DNA of 64,000 bases, from NCBI RefSeq assembly GCF_014180715.1, contig NZ_JACEFC010000001.1, positions 1-64,000 of the forward strand, read 5' to 3'. This DNA comes from Nocardioides stalactiti (lineage in GTDB: Bacteria > Actinomycetota > Actinomycetes > Propionibacteriales > Nocardioidaceae). Each line of letters opens with the position of its first letter. Within the stretch, counting starts at the first letter, position 1. The notes under the pieces are model-generated. The model ran no database searches. It had not been told where the DNA came from and saw nothing but the letters and a program-made list of their open reading frames with translations. The translations under genes were made by a program, and so were the position numbers. Positions 18,868-27,172 of this stretch are shown piece by piece.

Positions 18868-19026
18868 TCAGCGCCCCAGCACCCGGCGCAGCCAGGACCG
18901 TTCGTCCTCCGGGTGGCCCGGACACCACTGCTCCGGCGGCACGGTCGCACGGACCTCCGCTACGTGGGCGCCGCATCCGGCCCAGGTGGTCTTGTCACAG
19001 GTGCGGCAGCGTGCAGGTCGACACAT
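18868..19026 (-). CDS. Small Cys-rich zinc-binding protein (52 aa)
   Basis: A 52-residue frame with GGAGGAGG six bases before the ATG. It contains C7, C10, C18, H21, C35 and H38 in the arrangement CRTCDKTTWAGCGAH, which resembles a widespread family of very small proteins with a CxxCxKTTWxGCGxH signature, probably a one-zinc knuckle. Its function is unknown. It lies 15 bases downstream of the AhpD-like gene on the same strand, so it is likely the third gene of the MMPL operon. Confidence 0.75.
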   Translation of the reverse strand: MCRPARCRTCDKTTWAGCGAHVAEVRATVPPEQWCPGHPEDERSWLRRVLGR

Positions 19027-19041
19027 CGGAGACCTCCTCCC

Positions 19042-19440
19042 TCAGGACGCGGCGTCGCCGGCGTCGTGGGCGTCGGCGAACTCGCAGAACGCTGCGTAGG
19101 CGCGAGCGCCGTGGATCGTCGCGGGACCGCCGTGCATCAGGAAGGTCACGCCGATCGCCTCGGCTGCCTCCTGGCGCGTCGCGCCCGCACGCACCGCTGC
19201 CTGGGCGTGGGAGGCGATACAGCCGTCGCACCCTTCGACGACACCGATCGCGAGGGCGATCAGCTCCTTGGTCCGCTTGCTCATCTCGCCGTCGGCGAAC
19301 GCCGCCTGACTGAGCTCGCCGAAGCCCTTGTAGACGTCCGGGATGGCCCGGCGCAGGTCCCGATGGAGGGGCGAGAGGTCGCGGAGGACCGCCTTGCCGT
19401 GGCTCGTCGTGCCCTCGGAGGTGTTCGTGGTGGTGGTCAT
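19042..19440 (-). CDS. AhpD-like/carboxymuconolactone decarboxylase family protein
   Basis: 132 residues with the CMD/AhpD fingerprint: K-E-L-I-A in the helix before the active site, then EGCDGCIASH, giving the CxxC pair and the histidine four residues after the second cysteine. Such proteins are thiol-disulfide peroxidase partners rather than true decarboxylases. It lies 16 bases after the MMPL gene, same strand. With a thiol-type regulator divergent from the same promoter region, a redox-stress role is likely but inferred. Confidence 0.85.
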   Translation of the reverse strand: MTTTTNTSEGTTSHGKAVLRDLSPLHRDLRRAIPDVYKGFGELSQAAFADGEMSKRTKELIALAIGVVEGCDGCIASHAQAAVRAGATRQEAAEAIGVTFLMHGGPATIHGARAYAAFCEFADAHDAGDAAS

Positions 19441-19456
19441 GGTCGTTCCTTTCGTT

Positions 19457-21613
19457 TCAGCCGTGCGAGAAGGTGATGTCGGGGAGGATCCGCCGCAGCC
19501 ACCGCGGGGTGGCCCAGGCCGCGCGACCGGCGACGCGGAGCATCACCGGCAGCAGGACCAGGCGGACGAGGAAGGCGTCGAGCAGCACCGCGACGCCGAG
19601 GATCACGCCCATCTCCTTGGGCGGGAGCGGACCGGACAGGGCGAAGGTGAAGAACACCGCGACCATGACGCCGCCGGCGGCGAAGATCACTCGTCCGGAG
19701 TGGGCGACGGCGCCGACCATGGCCTCGCGCGGGTCGCCCGACTTCTCCCAGTGCTCCTTGGCCGACGCCAGCAGGAACACGGTGTAGTCCATCGCGATCG
19801 CAAAGATCATCGCGAAGAAGAACACCGGCGCCCAGGCGTCGAGGAAGCCCTGGTGCTCGAAGCCGAGCAGGTCCGAGCCGTGGCCTTCCTGGAAGACCAA
19901 CCTGGCCAGGCCGAAGGCTGCCGCCGTCGACAACAGGCTGGCCAGGGTGCCCAGCAGCGAGATCAGTGGCGCCTGCAGCGCGACGAGCAGCAACAGGAAT
20001 CCGAGCACCAGCACCACGCCGATCACCAGCGGCGTCGACCGGTCGAGCTGGTCCTTGAGGTCGATGTTCTCCACCGCCGCACCGCCGACCTGGGCCGAGC
20101 TCGGGAGATCGGCCCGGAGCCGAGCGACGGTGGTCACCAGCGCCGGGTCGGACGGGTCGACCGTCGGCATCGCTTGGATCATCACCAGCCCTGATCCGTC
20201 CTGCGCCGCGACGGACGGGAGCACCAGGGCGATCCCGGCGTCGGACCGCAGCTCGCGGGAGGCCGCACGTGCCTCGTCGTCGGCGACGACGACCTGGAGC
20301 ATGCCGGGCGCGCCCGGTCCGAAGGCGTCCTGGACCTGGTCGTACCCGATCCGCGCGTTCGCGTCCTCCGGGAGGACCTTGATCGAGGGCATGGCCGTCT
20401 GCACGCCGAAGATCGGTGCCGCCAGGGCGACCAGCACCACCAGCGCGCCGAGCCCCCAGGCGACCGGTCGGCGCCACAGCCGCTCACCCCAGGCCGCGAA
20501 CCTCGGCGACCGGTGCTCGCCGGTGTGCACCCAGGGCAGGGCGAACCTGTTGATCCGCTCGTCGAGCGTGAACAGCACGATCGGCAGCAGCGTCAGTGTC
20601 GCCGCGAGGATGAAGACGACCGCGATCATGATGCCGCCGGCCATCGACCGAAACGACGGCGACGGCACCAGCAGGACGGCGGAGAGCGAGACCAGCACGG
20701 TCGCGCCGGACAGCAGCACGGCCTTGCCGGCGGTGTCCATCATCTCGGCGATCGCGTGCCGTGGGTCCTCGTGCTGGCCCATCCGGGCGGCCCGGTAGCG
20801 GACGACCAGGAACAACGCGTAGTCGATCCCGAGCGCGAGCGCGAACATCATCGCGAAGTTCATCGCCCAGATGGAGACGGGCACGAGCTCGTTGATGAGC
20901 ACCAGGGATCCGGCGGAGGCGACGAGCCCGGCGACGGTCAGCAGCAGTGGCAGTCCGGCGGCGACGAGCGCCCCGAAGGCCAGGACCAGGATCCCGAGCG
21001 TGACCGGCCACGACACCATCTCCGAGGTCAGCATCGCCTCGAGGTTCGCCTCGTTGAAGTCCGACCAGAGCAGGGAGGAACCGGTCGGGTTCACCGCGAC
21101 GCTCTCCGTGGAGAGGTTCGCGACCTCTCCCTTCAGCTCGGTCGCGACCCGCACCATCTCGTTGGTGTCGACACCGGCGCCGGCGAGCACGATCGCCGTG
21201 CGACCGTCCGGCGAGATGCTCGCTCCGGGCACCGGTCCGACGACCTCGGCCAGGCGCGGCTCCGCCTCCAGGAGCGCGATGACGTCGGCGACCACCCTCG
21301 GGCCGTCGCCTTCGTCGAGCGGCGCATCCGTGCTGTGCACGACGACCTGGACCGCGTGGCTGGCGTTGCCACCGAAATGCTCCTGCGCGAGGTCACGCAC
21401 CGCAACCGACTCGGAGCCGTCGGCCTGCCAACCGGCGCCGGACAGGTTGCGCTCGACGGCCGGCGCGAAGATCCCGAGCCCTACGACGACCAGCGCCCAC
21501 ACGATCGCGACCGGGCGGCGGTGGTCGACCACCCACGTCCCGAGGCGTCCCAACGGACCGGGGCGCTGGTCGGTTGACTCGCTCTTGTCGACTTCCTCCG
21601 CTGAGGACTTCAT
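19457..21613 (-). CDS. MMPL family (RND superfamily) transporter
   Basis: 718 residues with the MMPL layout: one helix near the N-terminus, a large extracytoplasmic domain, five or six helices, then the whole pattern repeated. The GIDYALFLVVRYR motif in the first half and AMDYTVFLLASAKEH in the second carry the proton-relay Asp-Tyr pairs. Such exporters move lipids or hydrophobic compounds. The ATG at 21613 is chosen for its GGAAGG ribosome-binding site; the upstream ATG at 21640 directly abuts a palindromic operator. It is the first gene of an operon with the AhpD-like and small zinc proteins. Confidence 0.88.
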   Translation of the reverse strand: MKSSAEEVDKSESTDQRPGPLGRLGTWVVDHRRPVAIVWALVVVGLGIFAPAVERNLSGAGWQADGSESVAVRDLAQEHFGGNASHAVQVVVHSTDAPLDEGDGPRVVADVIALLEAEPRLAEVVGPVPGASISPDGRTAIVLAGAGVDTNEMVRVATELKGEVANLSTESVAVNPTGSSLLWSDFNEANLEAMLTSEMVSWPVTLGILVLAFGALVAAGLPLLLTVAGLVASAGSLVLINELVPVSIWAMNFAMMFALALGIDYALFLVVRYRAARMGQHEDPRHAIAEMMDTAGKAVLLSGATVLVSLSAVLLVPSPSFRSMAGGIMIAVVFILAATLTLLPIVLFTLDERINRFALPWVHTGEHRSPRFAAWGERLWRRPVAWGLGALVVLVALAAPIFGVQTAMPSIKVLPEDANARIGYDQVQDAFGPGAPGMLQVVVADDEARAASRELRSDAGIALVLPSVAAQDGSGLVMIQAMPTVDPSDPALVTTVARLRADLPSSAQVGGAAVENIDLKDQLDRSTPLVIGVVLVLGFLLLLVALQAPLISLLGTLASLLSTAAAFGLARLVFQEGHGSDLLGFEHQGFLDAWAPVFFFAMIFAIAMDYTVFLLASAKEHWEKSGDPREAMVGAVAHSGRVIFAAGGVMVAVFFTFALSGPLPPKEMGVILGVAVLLDAFLVRLVLLPVMLRVAGRAAWATPRWLRRILPDITFSHG

Positions 21614-21640
21614 GCCGTCGCCTTCCGATTCATCGTTCAT

Positions 21641-21655
21641 CCCCCCTGGGGGTTA
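21641..21655. promoter_or_regulatory. CsoR/CstR-type operator 1
   Basis: A run of C5-6, a central T and five G flanked by TTA (CCCCCCTGGGGGTTA), the pseudo-palindrome of G/C tracts with A/T flanks recognised by CsoR-family repressors. It lies between the divergent MMPL and DUF302 genes, next to the MMPL 5' end. Confidence 0.7.
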
Positions 21656-21672
21656 CGATCGAGAACGTAGCA

Positions 21673-21690
21673 TATCCCCCTGGGGGGATG
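21673..21690. promoter_or_regulatory. CsoR/CstR-type operator 2
   Basis: TATCCCCCTGGGGGGATG, a second copy of the G/C-tract palindrome, centred 34 bp from the first. It lies directly upstream of a TAAACT -10-like hexamer for the DUF302-regulator operon, so binding would block that promoter. Confidence 0.7.
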
Positions 21691-21721
21691 TAAACTCCAC
21701 CGCGAGAGCAAGGAGCTGGAG

Positions 21722-22138
21722 ATGAACGACTTCACGATGAGCGCCACGGTCGACCGGCCGTACGCCGAGACCGTCGACCGGGTCCGCGGCCTGCTGGGCG
21801 ACGCCGGTTTCGGCGTGCTCACCGAGATCGACGTGGCGGCGACCCTGCACACCAAGCTCGGCGTCGAGACCACGCCACGGGTGATCCTCGGCGCCTGCCG
21901 CCCCGAGCTCGCGCACCAGGCCATCGAGATCGACGACCGGGTCGCGACCCTGCTCCCCTGCAACGTCGTGGTCGCAGCGGAGGACTCCAGCCGGACCCGG
22001 GTCGACATCTTCGACCCCGGGATGATGGCGGCGTTCAGCGATGCACCCGGGCTGGCAGAGGTCGCCGGCGACGCGAGGAGCAGGCTCTCTGGGATGCTGG
22101 CGGCGCTGACCGCCACGACCGAAGGAGCGCAGGGATGA
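21722..22138 (+). CDS. DUF302 domain protein
   Basis: 138 residues, almost entirely a DUF302 domain: TLHTKLGVETTPRVILGAC in the centre, then LLPCNVVV, both typical, with two cysteines (in LGAC and LLPC). DUF302 proteins have a small alpha/beta fold of unknown biochemical role and are often found beside metal- or sulfur-responsive regulators. AAGGAG precedes the ATG. It overlaps the regulator gene by four bases (ATGA). Confidence 0.85.
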   Translation: MNDFTMSATVDRPYAETVDRVRGLLGDAGFGVLTEIDVAATLHTKLGVETTPRVILGACRPELAHQAIEIDDRVATLLPCNVVVAAEDSSRTRVDIFDPGMMAAFSDAPGLAEVAGDARSRLSGMLAALTATTEGAQG

Positions 22139-22395
22139 AGCTCGAACCCGAGGAGATCAAGGCGATCATCACCCGCCTCAAGCGCGCGAACGGGCACCTC
22201 GCCTCGGTGATCCGGATGCTCGAGGAAGGCTCCGAGTGCGAGGACTCCCTCACCCAGCTCGCCGCCGTCAACAAGGCGGTGAGCAGGGGCGGCTACGCGC
22301 TGGTCGCCGCCGGCCTCCAGAAGTGCCTGGAGGAGGGCGGTCCGGACAGCGTCGACACGAAGAAGATGGAGAAGCTCTTCCTGTCGCTGGCCTGA
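22135..22395 (+). CDS. CsoR-family regulator, CstR-like cysteine pair
   Basis: 86 residues, all-helical DUF156/CsoR family (LKRANGHLASVIRMLEEG pattern). The ligand positions read C35, G60 and C64: the histidine that copper-sensing CsoR uses is replaced by glycine, while both cysteines remain with the usual 29-residue spacing. This matches the persulfide-sensing CstR type better than a Cu(I) sensor. It is co-translated with the DUF302 gene, and the twin G/C-tract operators upstream suggest it controls itself and the MMPL operon. Confidence 0.88.
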   Translation: MKLEPEEIKAIITRLKRANGHLASVIRMLEEGSECEDSLTQLAAVNKAVSRGGYALVAAGLQKCLEEGGPDSVDTKKMEKLFLSLA

Positions 22396-22401
22396 CCTCG
22401 A

Positions 22402-23728
22402 TCAGATCTCGGTCGGCAGCCGGACCTGGAACACCGCTCCTCCGTCGTCATCACGCCGGTCGTGGACGACGTCCCCGCCGGCACTTCGCGCGACCCGCCG
22501 CGCCAACGCCAGCCCGAGACCGCTCCCTCCACTCCCACTCGCCCCGGGCTCGAAGAGATGCTCATGAAGGGCCGCAGGGACACCGGGGCCGTCGTCACGG
22601 ATCGCGATCATCACAAAGTGCCCGTCGACGACCGCGTCGACCAGCACGTGGGTGCCGTGGCGCACCGCGTTGGCAACGACCGGGACCAGTGCCCGCACGG
22701 CCGTGTCGGCGCTCATCGCGAGAGCCAGCTTGCCCCCGCTCCCCAACGTGACCGCCTCAGGCCTGTCGACCTGACGGAGCACCTCGGCGACGACGTCCTC
22801 GAGCCGACAGCGCGCACTGGCACGGGCGCCGGTCGAGGCGCGCGCGATGTCGAGCAGCCCGGTGATGGTGGTCGCCATCGACCGACAGTGACTGATGATC
22901 TCGCCGAGATCGGCGCGGAGCTCGTCATCCAGGTCGGGGCTCAGAGCGATGACCTCCGCGGTCGACAGGATCGCAGCCAGCGGGGTCCGCAGCTCGTGGG
23001 CGAGCTCGGAGGTCAGCCGTTGCTCGTCCCCGATCGCCCGGGCCACCCGCTCGAGCAACCCGTCCAACGTGTGCCCCAGAGCCTTGATCTCGTCGGTGGG
23101 CGGACCGAGGTCGAAACGCCGACCGAGGTCGTGCGCGCTCCACTCGTCAGCAGTCCTCGCCATCTCGGCGACCGGCGCCAGCGCCCGTCGACTCGCCCAC
23201 GCCGCAAGGCCAGTGGGAAGCACGACGATCACCAGGGCCGCGCCGAGGCCCGTCAACAGGCCGTTGCGCTCCTGCCCCTCGTAGGGCTCCAACGACTCCG
23301 ACACCACGACCACACCTGCGAACGCACCGTCTGCGCTCTGCACCGGCAACGCTCGCAGCCGGTAGTCGTCCTCGTCGGAGTGGAACGCCGGCGAAACCCG
23401 CCGGGACATCTCCTCGTACTCGTGCGCCTGCGCCGGAGGCACCGACCCCGCGACCAGCCTGCCCGCGCCGTCGTACACCGCCACCCCCGGCCCGAGGAGC
23501 GACGGGGGAATGACGGGGACGCGATCTCCGCCGGACTCGACCGCTTGCGCGACCGCGTCTGCCCTGTTCTCCAGCACCCGGTCGGCGGCCTCCGCCGCAG
23601 ACGTCTCGAGGACCAGCTGGATGATGAGGACGAGCAGCACCGCGACGCCGAGGCTCAGGCTCGCCGTCGCCACGACGACACGCCGTCTCAGACCTCCGTG
23701 GGGCCTGCCCGGCGCAGCGGCGTGGTCG

Positions 23729-23739
<11 letters not shown>
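22402..23739 (-). CDS. Sensor histidine kinase
   Basis: 445 residues: membrane helix at about 20-45, a 115-residue extracytoplasmic sensor region, second helix at 160-182, HAMP linker, then the dimerisation domain with H248 in SELAHELRTP and an ATPase domain with N (NAVRHG), DDGPGVP and GLGLALARR boxes. The GTG at 23739 overlaps the response-regulator stop by 11 bases. It phosphorylates the adjacent OmpR-type regulator. The gene is convergent with the CsoR-family regulator gene (six bases apart). The signal is unknown; the divergent redox genes are the obvious targets. Confidence 0.9.
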
Positions 23740-24394
<655 letters not shown>

Positions 24395-24511
24395 GCGACC
24401 TCCTCACGATCCCTGCGCTCGGATCGTAGTCAGGTTCCTGGCAGGAAGGCTCAGCCAAACTGCGAACGGGGCACGGGATCGGCCGTGCACTGCTCAGGAG
24501 GAGATCAACCG

Positions 24512-25930
24512 ATGACAGTGACGACCATGGGGCGGGCGACGGACCCACGGCTCGGTCGGACGGCGCGGGTCGACAGCTGGGTTCGCCTCCTCTCCTCGGG
24601 TGTGCTGGCATCCGCCATGTCGCTCGTGACCTGGTGGTGGATCGGTGGCGGGGGTCTCTCCGACCTCAGCGGCTGGGCGACCGCTCTGGTGTCGACGGGG
24701 CGGATCACCGGATTCCTGGCGTCGGTACTGCTCCTGGCGCAGGTCGCACTGATGGCCCGGATCCCGGTGCTGGAGCGTGCCTTCGGCCAGGACCGGCTCA
24801 CCGCGATCCACCGTGTCATCGGCTTCACCTCCTTCAGCCTGATGACCGCGCACATCGCTCTCATCACCTGGGGGTACGCCGGAGGCGCCGTGCCGCAGAT
24901 CCCGCACACGGCCTGGAGCTTCACGACCGAGTACCCCGGGATGCTCCTCGCCGTCGCGGGCACCGGATGCCTGGTCATGGTGGTCGGCACCAGTGTGCGC
25001 GCGGCGCGCCGACGACTGCGCTACGAGTCGTGGCACCTGCTCCACCTCTATGCCTACCTCGGTGCCGGCCTCGCCCTCCCTCACCAGCTGTGGACCGGCG
25101 CGGAGATGACGTCCTCAACGTCGCGGACCATCTTCTGGTGGGGGGCGTGGATCGCCGCGATCACGGCGGTCCTGGTCTACCGGGTCGCGCTGCCCATCGT
25201 CAGCAACCTGCGGTTCCGGCTCCGGGTGACCGAGGTCGTTCGCGAGAGTCGCGACCTGGTGTCGATCCACGTCGCCGGACGTCGCCTCGACCGGTTGAAC
25301 GTCAGGCCTGGTCAGTTCCTCAGCTGGCGGTTCGGGGGGCGGCCCGGTTGGACCCGGGCCAACCCGTTCTCCCTCTCGAGCGCACCGGACGGCTCCTCCC
25401 TCCGGATCACCGTCCAGGCCGTCGGCGACGGAAGCTCGTCGCTGGCAGCCCTGCGCCCGGGAACGCGCGTCTTCGTCGAGGGACCTTTCGGTCGTCTCAC
25501 CGACCGGGTGCGGACGCGACGCAAGGTCGCGCTGATCGGCGCCGGGGCCGGCCTGGCACCCCTCCGCGCTCTCGCCGAGGGCTTGCCGTACGCGCCGGGC
25601 GACGCGGTCCTCATCGAGCGCTACTCCGACGAGCCGCTCTTCCAGGACGAGCTCCTCGAGCTGTCCCGTACCCGTGGCCTCCAGATGCTGCGCAGCCGCG
25701 GCCGGCGGCGCAGCCACGACTCGTGGATCGGCGATGGGCTGGTGGGCGCGCGCGGCCACGTCGACGACGGGGCGGCGGACCGCGACCTCCTGCGCGAGTG
25801 CGTGCCTGACATCGCGGAGCGAGACGTCTACCTCTGCGGCCCGGCCGGATGGGTCGACCTCGTGGTGGCCGATCTCGACAGGCTCGGCGTACCTCGCCGC
25901 CACGTCCACGTCGAGTCGTTCGGTTGGTGA
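24512..25930 (+). CDS. Ferric reductase-like membrane flavoprotein (FAD/NAD(P)H)
   Basis: 472 residues: about six membrane helices in the first 230 residues with paired heme-binding histidines (DRLTAIHRVIGFTSF, SLMTAHIALITW, ESWHLLHLYAYLG, ALPHQLW), then a ferredoxin-reductase-like part with the FAD motif NPFSLSS, an IGAGAGLAPLRAL nucleotide-binding loop and the C-terminal LCGPAGW. It would move electrons from NAD(P)H across the membrane through FAD and heme. CAGGAGG precedes the ATG. It is followed four bases later by an FMN-binding protein, the likely electron acceptor. Confidence 0.88.
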   Translation: MTVTTMGRATDPRLGRTARVDSWVRLLSSGVLASAMSLVTWWWIGGGGLSDLSGWATALVSTGRITGFLASVLLLAQVALMARIPVLERAFGQDRLTAIHRVIGFTSFSLMTAHIALITWGYAGGAVPQIPHTAWSFTTEYPGMLLAVAGTGCLVMVVGTSVRAARRRLRYESWHLLHLYAYLGAGLALPHQLWTGAEMTSSTSRTIFWWGAWIAAITAVLVYRVALPIVSNLRFRLRVTEVVRESRDLVSIHVAGRRLDRLNVRPGQFLSWRFGGRPGWTRANPFSLSSAPDGSSLRITVQAVGDGSSSLAALRPGTRVFVEGPFGRLTDRVRTRRKVALIGAGAGLAPLRALAEGLPYAPGDAVLIERYSDEPLFQDELLELSRTRGLQMLRSRGRRRSHDSWIGDGLVGARGHVDDGAADRDLLRECVPDIAERDVYLCGPAGWVDLVVADLDRLGVPRRHVHVESFGW

Positions 25931-25934
25931 CCAC

Positions 25935-26357
25935 ATGAAGCGCATCCTGATCTGGCTCGTGAGCACCGTGGCCGCACTCGTCCTGCTCCTGAACTACAGG
26001 ACCTCGACGATGGGACCGGCGGCCCTCGCGCACCCCGGCGAGTACGTCGCCGGCACCACCGGCGCCGGCCCGGGAACCGGAACCGCTACCGGGTCCGTCA
26101 TCGACACCAAGTACGGACCGGTCCAGGTCGAGGTCACCGTGGAGCACGGTGTGATCGCAGGTGCCCGGGTCCTGAAGTACCCGACAGGCAGCTCGAAGGA
26201 CGAGGAGATCAACTCCTACGCCCTGCCGATCCTCCTGAACCGCACCGTCGGTGAGGACGCCGTCCAGCCGCAGGTCGACATGGTCAGCGGCGCCACCTAC
26301 ACCAGCGAGGCCTACCGGGACTCGCTCCAGAGCGCGCTCGACGAGGCGATGCGATGA
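25935..26357 (+). CDS. FMN-binding domain protein, covalent flavin carrier
   Basis: 140 residues: an N-terminal membrane anchor at about 4-20, a Gly/Thr-rich linker, and an FMN-bind domain ending with the flavinylation motif S118-G119-A120-T121. ApbE attaches FMN to that threonine. The encoded domain faces the outside of the membrane, so it can accept electrons from the reductase upstream. The gene overlaps apbE by four bases, tying substrate and modifying enzyme together. Confidence 0.9.
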   Translation: MKRILIWLVSTVAALVLLLNYRTSTMGPAALAHPGEYVAGTTGAGPGTGTATGSVIDTKYGPVQVEVTVEHGVIAGARVLKYPTGSSKDEEINSYALPILLNRTVGEDAVQPQVDMVSGATYTSEAYRDSLQSALDEAMR

Positions 26358-27172
26358 GGGCCCCGCAGGGCCAGGCCACTCCGTCCGGGGCTGCCGACAC
26401 CTGGCGCGCGGTCGAACAGCTGATGGGCATGCCCGTCAGCGTCGCCCTCCGCGGCCGCCACGCTGGTTCCCTGCAGGGGCGCCGCACCTGGCAGGAGGCC
26501 GTCGCCTTCCTTCGGACGGTCGACGCTGACTACAGCCCCTTCCGTCAGGACTCCTGGGTGACCCGGGTCGACCGAGGCGAGGAAGTGACAGCAGCACCGG
26601 CGACGCTCGCACTCGACCCGGCCGAGGTGCTCGGCCGCGCGGCTGCGGCGAAGTCCGCGACGGGCGGGGCCTTCGACGTGTGGCGTACCGGCGCGGACGG
26701 TCGGCGCCACTTCGATCCGTCCGGGGTGGTCAAGGGCCTGGCGGTGCAGCGCGCGGCCGTCATCCTCCAACAGCTCCCCGACACCGACGTGTGCCTCAAC
26801 GGCGGCGGCGACGTCAGCTGTTGGATGGCCCGACCGCACGGAGCGGGAGCCGAGGAGTGGCGGATCGGCGTGGAGGACCCGTTCTCGCCGAGCCGGCTGC
26901 TCGCCCACATCCCCGTACGACGGGGCGCCGTGGCGACGTCCGGGCTCGCGCACCGCGGTGCTCACGTCCGCGACGCGCGCACCGGTCTGCCGCCGCGGCA
27001 CCTTGCTGCGGTGACGGTCGTGGCGGACGACCTCGTCGACGCGGACGTGGCAGCGACCTGTGCCCTCGCCCTGGACTCCGACGGACCCCAGTGGCTGCGC
27101 GACCGGGACCTGACCGCCCTGGTGGTCCGGCGGGACGGCTCCGCCGAGCTGATCGGCGCACGACCGAGCTGA
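26354..27172 (+). CDS. apbE: ApbE-type FAD:protein FMN transferase
   Basis: 272 residues. Typical segments are MGMPVSVALRG near the start, DYSPFR, FDPSGVVKGLAVQRA, CLNGGGDV and ATSGLAHRGAHVRDARTG; the C-terminal domain has DADVAATCALAL with the metal-binding acid. It transfers FMN from FAD to a threonine of the co-encoded FMN-binding protein. No lipobox or signal peptide is apparent, so it may act in the cytoplasm or its start may be mis-set. It is the last gene of the three-gene electron-transfer operon. Confidence 0.9.
   Translation: MRAPQGQATPSGAADTWRAVEQLMGMPVSVALRGRHAGSLQGRRTWQEAVAFLRTVDADYSPFRQDSWVTRVDRGEEVTAAPATLALDPAEVLGRAAAAKSATGGAFDVWRTGADGRRHFDPSGVVKGLAVQRAAVILQQLPDTDVCLNGGGDVSCWMARPHGAGAEEWRIGVEDPFSPSRLLAHIPVRRGAVATSGLAHRGAHVRDARTGLPPRHLAAVTVVADDLVDADVAATCALALDSDGPQWLRDRDLTALVVRRDGSAELIGARPS

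Follow-up and report, generated by a model that had tools for sequence, protein, structure and literature searches.

The first 64,000 nucleotides of contig NZ_JACEFC010000001.1 of Nocardioides stalactiti (the window) contain a five-gene module in which a CsoR/RcnR-family repressor is accompanied by a DUF302 protein, an MMPL/RND transporter, an AhpD-like protein and a small Cys/His protein. The locus raises the question of which signal such a repressor would sense and what response its targets would provide. Comparison with related loci indicated that the regulator is probably a CstR/ScCsoR-type, reactive-sulfur-responsive repressor of both operons of the module, and in many soil actinobacteria the MMPL/AhpD/small protein/DUF302 set apparently takes the place of the usual genes for sulfur oxidation. 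The window is part of a Nocardioides draft assembly (4.55 Mb, 263 contigs). A scan across genomes with the regulator as query gave 80 loci.

Identity of the Regulator

The regulator gene was located at 22135–22395 on the plus strand. The CsoR/DUF156 fold of its product was indicated by PF02583 (E 1.5e-18) and by CsoR and CstR matches in the PDB, and its family was further assigned by alignment and tree. Alignment of the regulator clade (frameshifted L094 excluded) showed that the sensing cysteines C35 and C64, 29 residues apart, were kept in the clade and that in nearly every member glycine occupied position 60, the place of the copper-ligand histidine; for the window regulator, the original prediction had stated these residues. 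The signature xGLxxC was present in nearly every clade member, L091 (LAMQQC) being the exception. The glycine had also been described as CstR-like. This held for the absence of the metal-ligand histidine, but the solved CstR-type structure 7mq1 has asparagine at that position, and Gly60 is, in the alignments, a signature of the actinobacterial group and not of the solved CstR.

A sensor of copper or another metal, with targets that export or buffer the metal, would fit the membership in the CsoR family, the GC-tract operator resembling those of copper sensors, and the small Cys/His protein, which could bind metal. In the window regulator, Gly60 replaces the histidine both of the Cys-His-Cys Cu(I) ligand set of copper CsoR and of the RcnR/InrS set, which consists of His60 and an amino-terminal metal ligand (PMC5016687); its second helix has no metal-ligand histidine. 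The second family member in the window's genome carried the signature EHMNHC and adjoined a CopZ-like heavy-metal-associated protein, and is a predicted ordinary canonical copper CsoR. A His-bearing CsoR was likewise present besides the Gly60 regulator in 8/8 other genomes checked, and no P-type ATPase or metallochaperone was seen within the module at the loci examined. The ligand set supports the conclusion that the window regulator is not a copper sensor, and a role in metal sensing appears very improbable.

A formaldehyde sensor like FrmR is hardly to be expected. FrmR was the best-scoring NCBIfam match of the regulator (36 bits, far under the cut-off of 133), and Cys35 is shared. FrmR requires Pro2 next to Cys35 (PMC5016687), whereas residue 2 of the window regulator is Lys, and the module has no formaldehyde dehydrogenase.

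The tree of regulators was built from 87 columns and many of its forks are open; the RcnR/FrmR-like rows had long branches and were placed inside the group, a position that is not trustworthy. Seventeen proteobacterial regulators (L095–L111, signature DHxxxC) were judged to be RcnR/FrmR-like and were not taken as members. Two regulator paralogues in Nocardioides genomes (L146, NELRRA; L147, AELRQT) lacked both sensing cysteines, and so could not use two-cysteine sensing.

Twin Operators and Gene Organization

The DUF302 gene (21722–22138, plus strand) overlapped the regulator gene by 4 bp. On the minus strand, the genes of the MMPL/RND transporter (19457–21613), the AhpD-like protein (19042–19440) and, last in the operon, the small Cys/His protein (18868–19026) were separated by 15–16 bp. 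Given these gaps and this overlap, each gene set is very likely one transcript. The divergent start codons (21613 and 21722) were 108–109 bp apart. An upstream in-frame ATG of the MMPL gene at 21640 is a possible alternative start; the start at 21613 was preferred because of its ribosome-binding site. The five genes had the positions and families given by the original prediction, except for the family of the 52-aa protein (open reading frame calls, profile matches), and the sequence bore out two divergent operons around a 109-bp region with two G/C-tract palindromes centred 34 bp apart.

These palindromes are predicted operators of the ATCCCCC/GGGGGAT type, and this regulator has G-tract palindromes at its own operon. 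Operator A, on the MMPL side, was ATCCCCCCTGGGGGTT (21639–21654); operator B, on the DUF302 side, was ATCCCCCTGGGGGGAT (21674–21689). The centres of the C5-T-G5 cores were at 21647 and 21681, giving the spacing of 34 bp (35 bp in the 16-mer register). Exact matches to AWCCCCCNNGGGGGWT in the window were operators A and B only. Across all 4.55 Mb of the genome, the 16-mer AWNCCCCNNGGGGNWT matched exactly at two places and no more, both in the divergent region; by this exact-match criterion, the predicted regulon consists of the two operons only.

The twin operators are real and conserved. In a survey of 55 clade loci, operator pairs were found upstream of the regulator in 52, with a spacing of 31–36 bp (mostly 33–35 bp). 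Sites scoring at least 10/12 numbered 110 in the 700-bp upstream stretches of these 55 loci, whereas the flanking DNA, 661 kb in all, contained 11. These counts argue that the pair is kept by selection rather than by chance. No promoter was found when the intergenic region was scanned for the sigma-70 consensus; overlap of the operators with promoter elements is therefore not claimed.

Residue 21 of the regulator covaried with base 3 of the operator. Regulators with His21, as in the window, had ATC..GAT-type sites (82 sites, one exception), and those with Gln21 had ATA..TAT-type sites (7, one other). A DNA-specificity switch at residue 21 in the CsoR family is a possible lead and not a result, because the loci compared share ancestry and some of them were collected with a peptide pattern containing His21.

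Relationship to Sulfur-Linked Regulators

Sister regulators 75–80% identical to that of the window, with the same kind of operator, faced genes of rhodanese (PF00581), metallo-beta-lactamase (MBL)-rhodanese CstB-like proteins and TauE (PF01925), and in these operons the same MMPL and small gene often came next. The subclade of the window's regulator (support 98/92) held AhpD loci and MMPL-only loci, and the CstB-linked regulators formed the neighbouring group in the tree. Because such close relatives with the same operator type face rhodanese, CstB-like and TauE genes, reactive sulfur is supported as the best candidate class of signal for the window regulator.

Early Gly60 branches (L093, L164, L165 and L166) lay near genes of persulfide dioxygenase (PDO)-like MBL proteins, rhodanese or TauE. 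On the linear plasmid pRhX5 of Rhodococcus erythropolis (L167), one cluster combined MMPL, a CsoR with the Gly signature, an MBL protein and an oxidoreductase resembling sulfide:quinone oxidoreductase (SQR); G-tract palindromes preceded the genes of MMPL, the regulator and the MBL protein. Since every one of these branches has a gene of the MBL, rhodanese, TauE or SQR-like kind close by, sulfur control would be the simplest ancestral state of the Gly60 group.

In Streptomyces coelicolor, ScCsoR, a proven sensor of sulfane sulfur, represses a four-gene circuit via ATACCn6GGTAT sites, two of which lie at -48 and -9 of the pdo promoter; persulfidation of Cys37 releases the repressor from DNA (PMC7533328). 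The gene set around L166 (S. clavuligerus) matched this circuit, and from this gene content its regulator is probably orthologous to ScCsoR. YrkD of Bacillus licheniformis, which is CstR-like, responds to sulfane sulfur (PMC9918477). A reactive-sulfur or electrophile response had been predicted for the module; the sulfur part is backed by kinship to sulfur-linked regulators, and the electrophile part, like formaldehyde sensing, found no support (Lys2, not Pro2).

Co-conservation of the Gene Set

The original prediction had proposed a search for the five-gene set elsewhere. In the 80-locus scan, this set was co-conserved in Nocardioides and relatives: the regulator, DUF302, MMPL, AhpD and the small protein recurred as a group in many genomes of Nocardioides and Pimelobacter and in related metagenome-assembled genomes. 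Reduced versions were found in Streptomyces (no AhpD match), Nocardia, Amycolatopsis and Tsukamurella. In most related loci, the operon with AhpD/MMPL or CstB had the small Cys/His gene as its last gene. Remnants were also seen, namely an internally deleted AhpD (L037), a broken-up MMPL match (L043), an AhpD with stop codons (L091) and a regulator whose C-terminus was altered (L079). In L029 (334–549) and L068 (5834–6049), the small Cys/His protein apparently formed an in-frame fusion with an MMPL remnant.

Exchange of AhpD and CstB-Type Enzymes

Presence and absence were compared among 95 family genomes with a regulator match. AhpD was present in 28 and a close CstB-like enzyme in 52, and only 3 held both, whereas the margins predict about 15 (Fisher p 1.6e-8, uncorrected for shared ancestry). 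CstB was thus held by 3/28 genomes with AhpD versus 49/67 without it. A listed regulator lay within 4.5 kb of 25/31 AhpD places and of 56/68 close CstB places, and no single regulator was adjoined by both. One genome, MAG-46, contained both kinds of module. AhpD and CstB-type dioxygenase are near-exclusive alternatives under one repressor.

The remaining AhpD places were read individually. L172 had the full module, and its regulator was matched in part, close to where the stretch ends. L168 had twin ATACCCC..GGGTAT sites 35 bp apart and no regulator beside them, L173 a single, weaker GC palindrome some 400 bp upstream, and L170 one poor site match; no operator site was found at the AhpD places of L169 and L171. 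At L168 (4148–4616; G136:C1), the AhpD was a close homologue, and the divergent gene was MBL-fold-like.

Several results weigh against a sulfur signal in the window. Its own module has no rhodanese, PDO, SQR or TauE; in the sister loci, the regulators do face sulfur-metabolising genes of this kind. A search of the window's genome found no CstB-like MBL enzyme and no convincing SQR, the best candidate being an SQR-like oxidoreductase at 27% identity. Because the module has no sulfur-specific enzyme and the genome neither a CstB-like enzyme nor a convincing SQR, it is kinship that ties the regulator to sulfur, and the effector may have changed alongside the targets. The AhpD and MMPL families also have other well-known roles (peroxides, lipids, drugs).

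The repressor could have come to sense a different thiol-reactive signal (an organic hydroperoxide, hypochlorite, a quinone or another electrophile), with AhpD and MMPL as the response and the sulfur genes of its relatives reflecting the ancestral effector only. AhpD-family enzymes are known peroxide reductases, the almost exclusive replacement of CstB by AhpD would fit a change of function, and MAG-46 holds both modules. However, the AhpD and CstB groups do not differ in regulator, operator type or twin spacing, DUF302, MMPL and the small protein are common to both, and the Rhodococcus MMPL gene lies inside an SQR/MBL/CsoR cluster; moreover, the AhpD/CstB presence test is confounded by shared ancestry. 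Such a shift is considered rather unlikely.

Putative Functions of the Target Proteins

The AhpD-like protein belonged to the AhpD/carboxymuconolactone decarboxylase (CMD) family (PF02627, E 7.8e-22; TIGR00778; AhpD structure PDB 5dik, E 3e-23). Its CxxC-x3-H motif (CDGCIASH) was kept in all intact copies. The MMPL/RND transporter (718 aa; PF03176) matched MmpL3 structures (E 2e-36) and retained both transmembrane Asp-Tyr pairs, and on these grounds is expected to be proton-driven. In the DUF302 protein (PF03625, E 4.7e-18), cysteines C59 and C80 were invariant in 19 homologues and, by sequence match, were also kept in the solved structures PDB 1j3m and 1q9u.

The family assignments of these three predicted targets were confirmed; the fourth had been called a zinc knuckle. 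This 52-aa protein had no Pfam match and hit a zinc-finger-like NCBIfam model weakly (E 0.0046, below the cut-off). Its Cys/His residues, in the motifs C2, C7-x2-C10, W15-x2-C18-G-x-H21 and C35-x-G-H38, were invariant in a 35-homologue alignment. The predicted structure was a middling model (pLDDT 77, pTM 0.44); a search with it gave no PDB match better than E 1.8, and no fold is claimed.

Reactive sulfur stress raises ahpD, among other genes, in Staphylococcus aureus (PMC5480029). Together with the cysteine conservation in AhpD and DUF302 and the features of MMPL, this makes a reductive/export response of the module to sulfane sulfur plausible, not proven.

Proposed Mechanism

For the reactive-sulfur-responsive repressor, the following scheme is proposed. 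Reduced repressor tetramers would occupy both palindromes and silence both divergent operons, including the repressor's own gene. When persulfide or polysulfide builds up, Cys35 (with Cys64) would be persulfidated or cross-linked, and the modified repressor would leave the DNA, so that both operons are switched on. With its CxxC/His residues, the AhpD-like enzyme may then reduce sulfane sulfur or accompanying peroxides, the two-cysteine DUF302 protein may carry sulfur, the MMPL pump may export a product, and the small Cys/His protein may handle sulfur or zinc. The module would thereby serve the window's genome where relatives use rhodanese, persulfide dioxygenase and sulfite exporter. The parts, the operators, their co-conservation, the kinship to regulators of sulfur genes and the target swap were established by sequence analysis, and the effector, the operator occupancy and every downstream reaction are inferred.

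A more specific proposal is persulfide detoxification without persulfide dioxygenase, in which, with repressor and twin operators unchanged, an AhpD-type CxxC enzyme would reduce persulfides or polysulfides, MMPL would export a sulfur-carrying product and DUF302 would act as sulfur carrier, replacing oxidation to sulfite and export. This version is put forward tentatively, as a doubtful possibility.

The module places four poorly understood proteins (DUF302, a stand-alone AhpD, a small MMPL and a short Cys/His protein) in one regulatory setting and offers a stress that can be tested for them. That AhpD and CstB-type dioxygenase alternate under one repressor suggests two exchangeable routes for handling reactive sulfur. 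The twin-operator signature may also be used to find further members, such as the regulator-less AhpD locus L168.

Adjacent to the module (22402–27172), the window contained a histidine kinase/response regulator pair, followed by a flavocytochrome-like oxidoreductase, an FMN-binding-like protein (SGATYTS motif) and an ApbE-like protein. These neighbours look like a flavinylated electron-transfer system.

Comparison with Known Systems

The ScCsoR-pdo-rhodanese-tauE circuit of S. coelicolor (PMC7533328) resembles the window's module in its autoregulated CsoR-family repressor, whose two cysteines are 29 residues apart, and in its 16-bp palindromes, two of which lie in one promoter about 39 bp apart. 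The probable ScCsoR relative L166 of S. clavuligerus shares the Gly signature (TGLQHC) and paired sites, and its regulator shares 48% identity with that of the window. The targets of the ScCsoR circuit are PDO, rhodanese and TauE, whereas those of the window are MMPL, AhpD, the small Cys/His protein and DUF302; the third operator base is A in the former and C in the latter.

CstR of S. aureus and its relatives share with the window regulator the CsoR fold, two cysteines, the lack of a histidine at the metal position (Asn in 7mq1, Gly in the window) and G-tract operators. CstR operons contain rhodaneses, sulfite exporters and/or SQR (PMC10318464); the window module has no such gene.

The SUL module of Arthrobacter plasmids (PMC6305408) has, like the window's module, a CsoR regulator, DUF302 and twin operators, and a relative of the small Cys/His protein lies in its unannotated gap. 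It differs in having a sulfur dioxygenase, two rhodaneses, TauE and a major facilitator superfamily (MFS) transporter, and no AhpD or MMPL. The Rhodococcus plasmid cluster L167 shares the MMPL (60% identical), an xGLxxC regulator and G-tract operators with the window; it differs in its SQR-like oxidoreductase and MBL protein, and has no AhpD, DUF302 or small protein.

In the open-access literature searched, no description was found of this combination of DUF302, MMPL and AhpD/CMD with a CsoR/CstR regulator; the nearest system, the SUL module, lacks AhpD and MMPL. As far as this literature shows, a regulator of the CstR/ScCsoR-like type was already known, and the new part of the module is its target set.

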